Shown: positions 35,292-55,118 of the stretch, in pieces
Position numbering within the stretch: the stretch's first letter is position 1
Layout: each line of letters begins with the position of its first letter
Source of the DNA: Clostridiales bacterium
Lineage (GTDB): Bacteria > Bacillota > Clostridia > Christensenellales > Aristaeellaceae
Assembly (NCBI GenBank): GCA_017569285.1
Contig: CP069419.1
Coordinates: 806,001 to 870,000 of the forward strand
Reading direction: 5' to 3'
Length of the DNA stretch: 64,000 nucleotides
Program-made: the position numbers and the translations under genes
The notes under the pieces: generated by a model
Database searches by the model: none
What the model was told of the DNA's origin: nothing
The model's input: only the letters and a program-made list of their open reading frames with translations

Positions 35292-36803
35292 TTATTCCTT
35301 CTCCAGCCGGATCACGTTCCAGGAAAGCGCCGGCAGCTTCACGTTCAGCTTTCCGCCGTCGATCTTTCCGCCCCGCACCTTCTTCGGTGCCACATTGTCC
35401 GGGTTTTCTTCCGTGTTCACCGCCTTGACGTCGTCATGGTGCAGCACAATGTGCTCGCCGATCTTCAGTCCCGGGAACGCGCGCAGGTCGCAGTTCAGCA
35501 TAATGTCTTCCTGCATGTCGCGGTTCAGGGCGAAGATGGTCACGCTGCCGTCGTCCCCGGTCACTGCCGCGGCGTCCACCAGCGGTACCTTCTCAAAGTC
35601 CTTACAGTCATATACCGGCGAAGAGATGACCGGCCGCAGGGAGGTTCCCCGGCCGTATTTGGAAGCGTGCATCATCGGCCAGAAAATCGTCTGGGCCCAT
35701 ACGCCTCCGCCGTTCCGCGTCATGATCGGCGCGATCACGTTCACCAGCTGGGCCAGGCAGGCCACCTTCACCCGGTCCGCGTTCTTCAGGAAGGTAATCA
35801 GGATGGCGCCGGCCAGCAGGGCATCCTCAAAGTTGTACACGTCCTCCAGCAGCGGCAGGGCCCGGCCCCACTTGTCTGCCTTCCACACTTCCTTGTCCTG
35901 CTCATTGGAATGGTACCATACGTTCCATTCGTCAAAGGACAGGTTCAGCCGCTTCTTCGCGTGCTTCCGGCCGCGTACCGCATCGCAGATTGCCACAACT
36001 TCCTTGATGAAGTCGTCCAGGTCCATGCTGCGGGCCAGGAAGCCGGGGGTATCGTTGGTGGGATTGCCGTAGTAGCGGTGCAGGGAAACGTAGTCCACGT
36101 TCTCGTAGCACTCGTTCAGCATGGTGGTTTCCCACTCGCCGTAGGTCGGCATGTCGTGTGCCGCGCTGCCGCAGGCAACCACTTCAATGGAGGGATCCAC
36201 CCACTTCATGACCTTGGCAGCCTCGTTCGCGATCCGGCCGTATTCATATGCCGTCTTGTGGCCGATCTGCCACGGGCCGTCCATTTCGTTGCCCAGGCAC
36301 CACAGCTTGATGCCGAAGGGATTTTTCGCGCCGTTCTTGATCCGCAGGTCGGACCAGTAGCTGCCGCCCTTATGGTTGGCGTATTCCACCACATTCCGCG
36401 CCTCGTCCGGTCCCCGGGTGCCAAGGTTCACGGCGTACATCACCTGCGTGTTGGCCTTCTTTGCCCAGTCCACGAACTCATGCAGGCCAACCTCGTTGGT
36501 CTCCGTGGTCATCCACGCCAGGTCCAGCCGTTTCGGCCGCAGCTCCCGCGGACCAATGGAGTCTTCCCAGTTGAAGCCGGATACAAAATTGCCGCCCGGA
36601 TACCGCACCACGGGGATACCCAGTTCCCGAACCTTTTGGATCACATCCTCCCGGAATCCGTTTTTGTCGGCCGTAGGATGGCCCGGTTCATAAATACCGC
36701 CGTATACCGCCCGGCCCAGGTGCTCGATAAACGAGCCGTACATCCGGGGATCCACCTGGCCGATGGAAAAGTCCCGGTCCAGGATCATTGTCGCTTTCTT
36801 CAT
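35292..36803 (-). CDS. GH51 alpha-L-arabinofuranosidase
   Basis: A 503-residue cytoplasmic exo-enzyme that releases L-arabinose from arabino-oligosaccharides. The opening [23 protein letters not shown] and [15 protein letters not shown] are GH51 hallmarks. The acid/base is Glu173 in LGNEMDGPW and the nucleophile is Glu292 in [11 protein letters not shown]-terminal beta domain follows (about 380-503). It has no signal peptide, so it acts on imported oligosaccharides. AAGGAG precedes the ATG. It is the last gene of the operon, 21 bases after the GH43 gene, and supplies the main clue that the locus handles arabinan or arabinoxylan. Confidence 0.95.
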
Positions 36804-36824
36804 CTGAGGGAAACTCCTTCCGTG

Positions 36825-37745
36825 TTATCTATCCTGAAATATCGGTTCACCGGCGTCATTATACCGGATATACCGTAAAAAGCAATGCCTGTTCGGATCA
36901 CTCAGGGCGCTGCCCCGGAATCCCGGATAAGGCCTGGCATGGAAAACCAGGATATCCTTCTCGTCCTTGTTTTTTGTAAATGAATTGTGTCCCGGGCCGT
37001 ACAGCCCGTTATTTTCTTCGGTCACCATCACCGGCGTCGGGGATTTCTCCCAGTCCGATGCATTCAGCGGATCCCCGCCGGTCTTCAGCTTCAGCAGGCC
37101 CATCGCATACCGTTCATCAGTCGCGCTGCCGGAATAGGTAATATACAGCCGGCCGTCATGAATCAGGCAGCCCGGCCCTTCGTTCACCAGGAATCCCTGG
37201 CATTCCCAGTCATATTCGGGAACGCTCAGCAGCACCGCGGGCAGCTTCAGCTCCAGGGCGTTCTTCATCTCCGCGATGTACAGGTTGCTGTTCCCGGGGA
37301 TGCTGAAATCCCGCTGGGCCCAGATAAAATAGCGTTTTCCGCCGTATTCCACCGTGGTGGAATCAATCGTAAATGTTTCCCATCCGGTATCGATCCGTCC
37401 GGCTTCCCTGAATTCCCCTTCCGTCGGATCAGGATTCGGATTCACCAGCGCGTACGTCCGGTGGTCAAAGCGGCCTGCTTCATCCGCCCCGCCCCGGGCT
37501 GCCGCAAAATAGATCACCCATTGTCCGTCCACATAGTGGAGCTCCGGCGCCCAGATGTTGCAGCTCATTTCCCCGGACGGATGCCGGGTCCACACCGTTT
37601 TTTCCTCTGCTTCCCGCAACCCGTCCAGCGTGTTCGAGCCGCGCAGGATCACCCGGTCAAACGCCGGCACGGACGCCGTAAAGTAATACCGGCCGTCTTT
37701 GCATGTGATAAACGGATCCGCGCGCTGTTCAATAAATGGTTGCAT
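36825..37745 (-). CDS. GH43 family arabinosidase (cytoplasmic)
   Basis: A 306-residue five-bladed beta-propeller glycosidase. The catalytic base is Asp10 in RADPFI, the pKa modulator is Asp128 in FTIDSTTVE and the general acid is Glu189 in LVNEGPGCL. The SCNIWAPELHY segment is typical. It lacks a signal peptide, so like the GH51 enzyme it works inside the cell. The closest plausible activity is exo-alpha-L-arabinofuranosidase or arabinanase of the GH43_26-type group, but the subfamily is my inference. A weak ribosome site (GGGTGATC) precedes the ATG. A perfect palindrome lies between it and the upstream gene. Confidence 0.88.
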   Translation of the reverse strand: MQPFIEQRADPFITCKDGRYYFTASVPAFDRVILRGSNTLDGLREAEEKTVWTRHPSGEMSCNIWAPELHYVDGQWVIYFAAARGGADEAGRFDHRTYALVNPNPDPTEGEFREAGRIDTGWETFTIDSTTVEYGGKRYFIWAQRDFSIPGNSNLYIAEMKNALELKLPAVLLSVPEYDWECQGFLVNEGPGCLIHDGRLYITYSGSATDERYAMGLLKLKTGGDPLNASDWEKSPTPVMVTEENNGLYGPGHNSFTKNKDEKDILVFHARPYPGFRGSALSDPNRHCFLRYIRYNDAGEPIFQDR

Positions 37746-37778
37746 ATGATCACCCGTTCGTCAGAATTTTCCGGGAAT

Positions 37779-53894: not shown

Positions 53895-54117
53895 GGTGCG
53901 CTCCGTTCTCGGGCGCGTACTGCAGTTCCTGGTAGTCACCGCCGGAATCTTCGCCTGGTGGATGGCGGTTCTGCTGCTGGTTTCCGTCTTCACCGTCAAC
54001 ATCTGGCATATTGCCTTTACTTCCATCGTATTCATTTCGCTCGGGCTCACCGGAATCTGCGCCGCCGTTTACCTGGCGGTCATGCTTCGCCGGGCCCGGC
54101 CGTCAGGAGGTGCCTGA
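53884..54117 (+). CDS. Small two-helix membrane protein
   Basis: A 77-residue protein with a basic N-terminus (MTNKVRSVLGRV) and two membrane helices (about 13-37 and 42-66, VVTAGIFAWWMAVLLLVSV and IAFTSIVFISLGLTGICAAVYLAVML), ending RRARPSGGA. It overlaps the arabinanase gene by 11 bases and ends two bases before the lacI start, so it is held inside the operon by translational coupling (GGGGTGTAAAG before the ATG). Function unknown; no homologous family is recognised. Confidence 0.65.
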   Translation: MTNKVRSVLGRVLQFLVVTAGIFAWWMAVLLLVSVFTVNIWHIAFTSIVFISLGLTGICAAVYLAVMLRRARPSGGA

Positions 54118-54119
54118 AC

Positions 54120-55118
54120 TTGGGCAAGGATCCGAACAGACCGGTCACCCTGCAGGATATCGCGAAGGCCACCGGGTATACGATCAACACCGTTTCCCGC
54201 GCTCTCAAGGACAAGGATGACATTTCCCGTGAAACCTGCGCCTATATCCAACGGGTCGCCCGGGAGATGGGCTATGTCCGCAATTACCTGGCCAGTTCCC
54301 TTCGTTCCGGGCGGACAAAAACGCTGGCGATGATCGCCGGGTCCATGATGAACCCGTTCTATGCCATCCTGATGGACCTGATCCAGCGGGAAGCGGTTCA
54401 GTACGGCTACACGCTCTTTATTCTCTGCTCGCAGGATGATCCGGAAGCTGAGCTGAAAGCGGTGCAGATGGCCCTTTCCCGCCAGGTGGACGGCATTCTC
54501 ATCACCCCATGTTCCTTTGAATCCCCCGCTCTGTCCCTCCTGCGGGAATCCCATATCCCCTTTGTCCTCCTCAGCCGTTTCCAGGAAGGATCCCGGGACG
54601 ACTGTGTCTACTGTAACGATGAGGAAGGCGGCTACCTGGCTGCCCGCCACCTGATCGAAACCGGTCACCGCAAAGTGGCCATGCTGTCCCACCGCCAGGT
54701 GGTCTTCTCCTCCCGCAAGCGCTTCACGGGCTTCCGGCAGGCCTGCCTGGATGCCGGCATTCCGGAGGAGGATATCGGCTATGCCTGCCTGCAGGATCCG
54801 GATGAAATTCTCGCTCAGCTGAAAGCCTGGATCGCCGCCGGATTCAACGGGCTGTTCTCCTTCTGTGATGTGGAAGCCTGGGGCACCATTACCTTGCTGG
54901 AAAACAATGGCTTCCGCGTGCCGGACGACCTGCACGTCATCGGCTTTGACAATATCCTCGGATACATCAACTTCACAAAGCCGATCTGCTCCGTGGACTG
55001 CCACCTGCAAGATGAAGCGCGCATCGCGATCGAGCTTATCCGCAACCGGATCCATGACCCGTCGCTTCCACCGCAGCAGGTCATCATCCCGGTCGACTTT
55101 GTCTCCCGGTGCCGCTGA
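54120..55118 (+). CDS. LacI-family transcriptional regulator
   Basis: A 332-residue sugar-responsive repressor. The N-terminal helix-turn-helix is VTLQDIAKATGYTINTVSRALKDKDDIS (residues about 9-36), with the hinge YVRNYLASSLRSGRT. The periplasmic-binding-like sensor domain (about 62-332) contains IAGSMMNPFYAILMDLIQ, VDGILITPC and LHVIGFDNI. The start is a TTG at 54120-54122, nine bases after AGGAGG; the frame extends upstream to 53958 but that part overlaps the membrane protein gene. It probably controls both arms of the locus through the palindromes near 52180, with an arabinose- or arabino-oligosaccharide-type inducer. Confidence 0.92.
   Translation: MGKDPNRPVTLQDIAKATGYTINTVSRALKDKDDISRETCAYIQRVAREMGYVRNYLASSLRSGRTKTLAMIAGSMMNPFYAILMDLIQREAVQYGYTLFILCSQDDPEAELKAVQMALSRQVDGILITPCSFESPALSLLRESHIPFVLLSRFQEGSRDDCVYCNDEEGGYLAARHLIETGHRKVAMLSHRQVVFSSRKRFTGFRQACLDAGIPEEDIGYACLQDPDEILAQLKAWIAAGFNGLFSFCDVEAWGTITLLENNGFRVPDDLHVIGFDNILGYINFTKPICSVDCHLQDEARIAIELIRNRIHDPSLPPQQVIIPVDFVSRCR

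Follow-up and report, generated by a model that had tools for sequence, protein, structure and literature searches.

Organisation of the locus

We analysed a stretch of 64,000 nucleotides from a Clostridiales bacterium (GenBank assembly GCA_017569285.1, contig CP069419.1, positions 806,001 to 870,000; hereafter the window, with position 1 as its first letter), focusing on an arabinan-type locus at positions 35,292 to 55,118 in which an NHL/TPR/Yip1 membrane protein and a DUF5696 protein are encoded between two sets of ABC importer genes. A preceding sequence-only reading had described one minus-strand operon with two solute-binding proteins (SBPs), two MalF/MalG-type permease pairs, GH43 and GH51 enzymes and two large genes exactly between the importer gene sets, together with a divergent arm comprising a secreted arabinanase and a LacI regulator. 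The coordinates and gene identities of all these parts were verified, domain matches bore out the divergent arm, and the order around the two large genes was reconfirmed and recurs across the phylum (see below).

In the order of transcription, the minus-strand operon begins with a large SBP (SBPL, 985 aa, 49164–52121, SBP domain at residues 575–862), followed by the MalF-type permease F1 (48227–49147) and the MalG-type permease G1 (47337–48206) of importer 1, the NHL/TPR/Yip1 protein (45260–47335), the secreted or anchored DUF5696 protein (43018–45267), and the permeases F2 (41993–43021) and G2 (41026–42027) and small SBP (SBPS, 516 aa, 39402–40952, assigned by Pfam) of importer 2. It ends with a secreted protein of 502 aa (U502, 37833–39341), a GH43 enzyme assigned by Pfam (36825–37745) and a GH51 arabinosylfuranosidase, ArfA (35292–36803, above the cut-off of an NCBIfam equivalog). 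The genes from SBPL through G2 follow one another almost without gaps, with intergenic distances of 16, 20, 1, −8, −4 and −35 bp (DUF5696 and F2 overlap by 4 bp, F2 and G2 by 35 bp), and 73 bp separate G2 from SBPS. The divergent plus-strand arm encodes a secreted endo-arabinanase with GH43 and GH43_C domains (ABN, 52197–53894), which is AbnB-like but falls below the NCBIfam cut-off, and a LacI-family regulator (53958–55118). The true start of ABN probably lies ∼57–62 codons inside the open reading frame (ORF), at the methionine that, judged by eye, opens its signal peptide. The domain of the GH43 enzyme begins at residue 3, so this enzyme lacks a signal peptide. With ABN, GH43, GH51, two importers and a LacI regulator, the window locus is a Gram-positive polysaccharide utilisation locus (gpPUL) by definition.

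Gene order of the eight-gene block

The middle pair is the centre of a conserved block, SBPL-F1-G1-NHL/Yip1-DUF5696-F2-G2-SBPS, which we compared in two sets of loci. The named set consists of the best 80 of at least 542 confirmed candidates, each with flanks of up to 10 kb, and leans towards the clade of the window; its members are mostly Lachnospiraceae and other Clostridia, and also include Alkalihalobacillus, Amphibacillus, Evansella, Fundicoccus and two Anaerolineae bins. The wider sample consists of 40 loci of the phylum, order and genus, hand-picked for spread from match lists while their neighbourhoods were unseen. One of these (L181) is the same locus as L076 of the named set and is counted once in totals of distinct loci. 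Order was counted only for loci with room on the contig, which omits three loci upstream and four downstream from the 80, and none and one, respectively, from the 40.

NHL/Yip1 lies directly upstream of DUF5696 in 77/77 named and 40/40 wider-sample loci (116/116 distinct loci), and F2 lies directly downstream in 76/76 and 39/39 (114/114 distinct loci). In every one of these 116 distinct loci a Yip1 domain is thereby encoded alongside ABC transporter genes. A single gene carries both NHL and Yip1 in each of the 77 named loci; in the wider sample the two are fused in 18 of the 40 loci and split in 22. The SBPL-F1-G1 genes are directly upstream of the NHL gene in 67 of 68 named loci (the exception being L136) and in 26 of 36 loci of the wider sample; in six of these 36 they occur elsewhere in the stretch, and in four (L148, L149, L153 and L159) no intact SBPL-F1-G1 block was found there. 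The plasmid collection held two records with the block, from Paenibacillus cellulosilyticus and Butyrivibrio fibrisolvens D1, both in the same order. A chance neighbourhood is ruled out by the recurrence of this gene order across the phylum.

The sequence-only reading had proposed that the middle pair is part of the importer system and no bystander, a proposal to be given up if the two genes usually occur away from importers. No DUF5696 locus with room lacked NHL/Yip1 or F2, and the genes lie beside their partners in every distinct locus counted on either side, so this part of the proposal holds. Presence in a single operon alone would permit the middle genes to be hitchhikers of a conserved operon; with their position kept in 116/116 distinct loci, and with NHL/Yip1 as conserved as SBPL (mean identities of 0.54 and 0.53), we find this explanation barely credible.

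The two importers

Each importer has the components of a type I (MalFG/CUT1) system, namely an SBP and two BPD_transp_1 permeases with EAA loops. Alignment shows EAA-type loops in all four permease families; in the window the loop is kept as EAG in F1 and as an EAA loop in G1, F2 and G2. Both permease pairs should therefore couple to ATPases. Lost coupling in one pair was considered, as a strict motif missed 43 of 109 F1 loops, and was ruled out by the alignment, which shows EAG there. The window contains no OB_MalK-type importer ATPase, and six such frames occur elsewhere in the genome; in Paenibacillus cellulosilyticus, a ugpC-type ATPase gene lies directly upstream of the block.

The SBP part of SBPL is nearest to Lin1841 (5ysb) and is preceded by an extension of ∼550 aa, made up of two similar β-sandwich-like repeats and a helical stretch. 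The extension received no name from Pfam or NCBIfam at the first thresholds; at E 0.05, SBPL N-terminal regions gave weak matches to CBM_35 in 11 of 24 sequences and to Golvesin_C in 13 of 24. Such an extension would suit the capture of long chains. Relatives of it were also seen in four genomes in which the rest of the block is absent (G067, G147, G110 and G176; L197–L200), in frames of ∼460–560 aa scoring 124–155 bits, and these are possibly free-standing relatives of the capture domain.

Co-occurrence and shared inheritance

We surveyed 398 genomes of the phylum, the window's own genome included; related genomes among them are not independent. DUF5696 gave any match at E 1e-3 in 52 genomes, a match over the cut-off in 43 and a full-length match in 41. 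Strong NHL/TPR/Yip1 matches (>180 bits) occur in exactly the same 41 genomes; a partial match of 100 bits in G283 aside, the remaining matches listed score less than 65 bits and span no more than the NHL repeats. All 41 genomes also contain the N-terminal SBPL extension (in G157 it is cut by the contig end). With at most three candidates scored per genome, DUF5696 and SBPL copy numbers are equal in 32 of the 33 genomes below this scoring limit (the exception, G437, has 3 and 2), and eight further genomes have at least three of each. Several genomes, such as G118, carry two blocks on different contigs, which argues that the pairing is more than linkage. Across 61 complete loci, pairwise distances among the eight components correlate at 0.86–0.97.

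The main rival to a joint machine is that one operon holds two independent importers, for example for long linear and for short or branched arabino-oligosaccharides, with the middle proteins serving a separate surface step and joint inheritance reflecting a useful gene set. Both permease pairs keep EAA-type loops and each has an SBP; SBPS matches vary strongly between loci and shift position; the SBPL-F1-G1 block is separable; and in Bacillus subtilis separate MsmX-dependent importers take up different parts of pectin, AraNPQ importing linear arabino-oligosaccharides (PMC5730181; here and below, statements on cited papers refer to the portions of their text available). Independent importers would be expected to be gained and lost singly, yet DUF5696, NHL/Yip1 and SBPL stand together in the 41 of 398 genomes, with the equal copy numbers noted above. 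We regard two independent importers as rather unlikely.

The DUF5696 protein

The window protein matches the DUF5696 family in Pfam with E 1.6e-169. A profile built from 20 diverse family members finds GH129 structures at E 2e-11 to 2e-10, and in a Foldseek search the AlphaFold model (mean pLDDT 90) finds 5opq, 8rzk and 5wzn as best matches, followed by GH101, with TM-scores by target of 0.69–0.74 against the GH129 structures. As modelled, DUF5696 has a GH129/GH101-like fold.

In GH129 enzymes, Asp435 of NagBb and Asp486 of ZgGH129 represent a common catalytic nucleophile (PMC5698469). Beyond the third barrel strand the GH129 alignment has weak stretches only, and from barrel order and these weak alignments the candidate position in the window protein is Gly536 or, less likely, Tyr544. 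For the window clade, the choice between the two makes no difference: the window copy and 78 of 80 named relatives have aspartate at neither position, the other two (L140 and L141) having it at 544 only. Outside this clade, aspartate is found at both positions in the second copy of the window's own genome (L003) and, among other distinct sequences, in 25/25 from the genus, 19/39 from the wider sample and 4/12 from the phylum; at 544 alone it is found in 15/39 and 6/12 of the latter two. Trp425 is kept in 80/80 named, 25/25 genus, 37/39 wider-sample and 12/12 phylum sequences. The DUF5696 protein of the window clade is thus, as far as these residues tell, probably a non-catalytic glycan-binding pseudoenzyme, and proteins of other clades may be catalytically active.

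These residues also bear on a reading in which DUF5696 is an active GH129-like surface glycosidase that trims the captured chain before import, held beside the importers by NHL/Yip1. The fold, the profile similarity to GH129 structures and the frequent retention of aspartate outside the arabinan clade all speak for it; against it, the gene is kept in place in the named relatives and the window even where aspartate is at neither position, and the window protein matches PF18952 only, and not PF11308 (GH129), at E 1e-3. (A PF11308 survey of 149 genomes gave no match, controls included, and is hence uninformative.) We consider an active glycosidase unlikely. The sequence-only reading had offered capture, processing or sensing of glycans as the task of the middle pair; of these, processing by the window-clade protein is disfavoured because the candidate catalytic residues are lost, and beyond that the sequence does not separate the three roles.

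The NHL/TPR/Yip1 protein

Pfam finds NHL and Yip1 domains in the window protein (Yip1 at E 1.3e-13). The model (mean pLDDT 86) shows an N-terminal helix, predicted to be a signal or membrane helix, a propeller at approximately residues 46–360, TPR-like helices at 362–423, a long helix and several membrane helices. The sequence search returned NHL and TPR proteins, and Foldseek returned mostly β-propeller proteins, among them the NHL domains of TRIM71, Thin and Brat, with no Yip1 match among the matches listed. A basic run follows the second membrane helix by eye, which would place the propeller outside the cell.

Two cases set a precedent for Yip1 proteins as accessories of ABC transporters: YknW, a bacterial protein of this family, modulates how the ABC exporter YknXYZ is assembled (PMC4887032), and in the bawcin cluster a Yip1 gene sits with ABC export genes (PMC10707071).

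Regulation and neighbouring features

Upstream of SBPL, at 52169–52201 (strand not assigned), lie two tandem 12-bp copies of an operator-like repeat (GTTAACATTATC / GTTAACATGATC), which the ORF start of ABN at 52197 overlaps. Genome-wide, this pattern occurs with zero mismatches only here and in two more places at two mismatches; there was one control match. The LacI protein may control the operon locally through these repeats.

Propeller and TPR domains often bind partners, and the middle pair might accordingly act as a sensor, with the NHL propeller and DUF5696 relaying to the membrane and to regulation whether the importers are occupied by glycan. A two-component system near the block on pNP243 of Butyrivibrio fibrisolvens fits this idea. 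In the window, however, a LacI regulator and an operator-like site are present locally, and the Pfam and NCBIfam scans reported no domain for signalling in either middle protein; a sensor is, in our view, very unlikely.

Several features adjoin the locus. A mobile element borders it, an IS200-type transposase (34645–35112, minus strand) lying just beyond the operon end, with an STnc490-type RNA (Rfam RF01405, 66.5 bits) directly before it at 35124–35232 on the same strand. Also on the minus strand, an ECF-type sigma factor gene overlaps a 370-aa ORF lacking a Pfam match at 32799–34438, possibly as a sigma/anti-sigma pair, and two adjoining ABC exporter half-transporters (ABC_membrane and ABC_tran) at 56123–59796 are probably unrelated to the locus.

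Partner genes and other contexts of the block

Of the 80 named loci, 63 have at least one of ABN, GH43, GH51 and U502 close to the block, versus 2 of 40 loci in the wider sample, namely the duplicate L181 and L153. A scan of wider-sample flanks covered 151 of 167 ORFs (77 and 74), with the 25 commonest families per set serving as examples and not as a census. The flanks include GH26, GH10, GH3, GH28, GH8 and GH2 enzymes, alginate lyase and apiosidase, as well as CBM35 and CBM65 domains, GDSL esterases and LacI regulators, each in 1–4 of the 77 or 74 proteins. The partners also follow the core less closely than the core follows itself when distances are compared in the same loci: correlations with the core are 0.62–0.67 for ABN (core with itself 0.78–0.96, 26 loci), 0.41–0.69 for GH43 (0.83–0.95, 37 loci), 0.20–0.55 for GH51 (0.81–0.95, 31 loci) and 0.32–0.47 for U502 (0.74–0.95, 35 loci). 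Between GH43 and GH51 themselves the correlation is 0.89 (31 loci, from a table that included loci with stray permeases).

The arabinan enzymes are exchangeable partners of a constant core. The varied flanking enzymes and the weaker correlation of the partners indicate that the block serves uptake in general, with arabinan as its local use; in the window, the enzyme context points to arabinan or arabino-oligosaccharides as the substrate. U502 received no name from Pfam or NCBIfam at the first thresholds and has a weak likeness to part of the arabinanase structure 5hon; it is single-copy in 40 compared loci and evolves apart from the core. It is probably glycan-binding, and may be an exchangeable surface protein of that kind.

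DUF5696 is present twice in the window's own genome. The second copy (L003, G000:C1:434000-453999) lies in a block with the same order, here comprising nine genes, NHL and Yip1 being encoded apart, and is distant from that of the window (26% identity for DUF5696, 28% for the SBPLs). Its surroundings (G000:C1:424000-468000; L203, L003 and L202) are of a housekeeping kind: dnaA and pheS/pheT make up one flank, and the other encodes a Na+/H+ exchanger, a flavodiiron-like protein and a major facilitator superfamily protein and holds genes for arginine and carbamoyl-phosphate synthesis. The 19 flanking proteins scanned contained no glycosidase or other glycan-degrading enzyme, which places L003 outside the gpPUL definition. 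The Paenibacillus cellulosilyticus block (L192, plasmid NZ_CP054609.1 79375-105432) has two small SBPs and a number of LLM-class flavin-dependent oxidoreductases as its neighbours, a hint that its substrate is not a plain polysaccharide. Specificity of the middle pair for arabinan is not supported and was rejected, given the scarcity of arabinan-type genes in the wider sample, the varied flanks and the second copy with no glycosidase among its 19 scanned neighbours.

A proposed uptake module

We propose that the eight genes form one glycan-uptake module, in which two obligately paired type I importers are joined by NHL/Yip1 and DUF5696, and give this reading an even chance. It builds on gene content, order and co-occurrence, on the recognisable EAA loops, and on the modelled fold and acid loss of DUF5696; from these we infer a physical complex, its handling of chains, its substrate, its ATPase and its regulation. 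The two MalFG-like importers would form an obligate pair energised by an MsmX/MalK-type ATPase encoded elsewhere. At the surface, SBPL, with its two CBM-like domains, would capture long chains; the NHL/TPR/Yip1 protein, sitting in the membrane with its propeller and TPR helices outside, would be an assembly or coupling subunit, as YknW is for an exporter; and DUF5696 would be a membrane-near subunit of GH129 fold with the task of holding or orienting glycan chains. In the window, the secreted arabinanase would cut arabinan, the module would import the arabino-oligosaccharides, and the cytoplasmic GH43 and GH51 enzymes would finish their breakdown, with the LacI protein repressing through the tandem operator-like repeats.

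Several observations weigh against this module. In 10/36 and 1/68 loci no intact SBPL-F1-G1 block adjoins the NHL gene, so the chromosome does not always keep the two importers together. A partial NHL match (100 bits) occurs in G283 without DUF5696, and in G158 and G200 the SBPL extension scores above 400 bits on contigs that end inside F1, with no DUF5696 or NHL/Yip1 detected elsewhere in these genomes. The correlated distances are partly due to common ancestry of the loci. The position of the nucleophile in DUF5696 comes from weak profile alignments and secondary structure. A promoter-like site at 52265–52237 (minus strand) was found once versus 0.4 times in shuffles, which is not beyond chance. 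Finally, the housekeeping surroundings of L003 and the flavin oxidoreductases that take the place of glycosidases around L192 mean that a glycan role may not extend to every copy, and from L003 the ancestral task of the block may not be plant-glycan feeding.

A bolder form of the proposed module, which we consider possible though doubtful, is a twin-engine importer in which two MalFG translocators would be locked together by the NHL/Yip1 scaffold and the GH129-fold chain holder, so that a polymer is handled by both pores simultaneously; it would be a Gram-positive counterpart of the SusCD pair, with enzymes and the small SBP swapped per substrate.

If the module reading is true, the block is a common but overlooked uptake machine of rumen, gut and soil bacteria, present in approximately one-tenth of the sampled genomes of the phylum (41/398). 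It would provide the first functional context for DUF5696 and for a bacterial NHL/Yip1 family, serve as an annotation marker for such loci, and make Gram-positive uptake of long glycans directly testable by genetics.

Comparison with known systems

The sequence-only reading had taken the locus as a candidate for an undescribed system. This stands for the fixed combination, as far as we searched, and not for its parts, which are of known kinds: in the literature searched, which lay outside subscription papers, we found no description of the eight-gene block and no mention of DUF5696. Bacillota importers for plant glycans are usually described as single SBP-plus-permease units.

For DUF5696, the nearest relatives are the GH129 enzymes NagBb and ZgGH129/DagB (PMC5698469; 5wzn, 5opq and 8rzk), which share the overall fold and sequence similarity in the barrel; unlike them, the window-clade protein has no acid at the inferred nucleophile position, and DUF5696 sits in an importer block in the loci seen. 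The Bacillus YknWXYZ exporter resembles the block in pairing an ABC transporter with a membrane protein of the Yip1 family, which modulates how the transporter is assembled; it differs in being a MacAB-type exporter with no second transporter, and the available text mentions no NHL propeller for YknW (PMC4887032).

Among importers, AraNPQ-MsmX of B. subtilis is likewise a type I system with an SBP and two permeases, an ATPase encoded apart and a role in arabinan use, but it is one importer with one SBP, and no NHL/Yip1 or DUF5696 partner is named in the accessible part of its description (PMC5730181). The Xua system for selfish arabinoxylan uptake in Ruminiclostridium cellulolyticum agrees with the proposed module in importing large oligosaccharides by an ABC transporter followed by intracellular hydrolysis; it has one SBP and one permease pair, and the term NHL is absent from the text as available (PMC9675976). 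The gpPULs, finally, combine enzymes, a carbohydrate transporter and a regulator as the window locus does, and loci with two ABC transporters (Ros-5 and Ros-9) are among those listed; the portions available describe no fixed two-importer core with NHL/Yip1 and DUF5696 (PMC5320581), whereas the block studied here keeps its core and varies in its enzymes.

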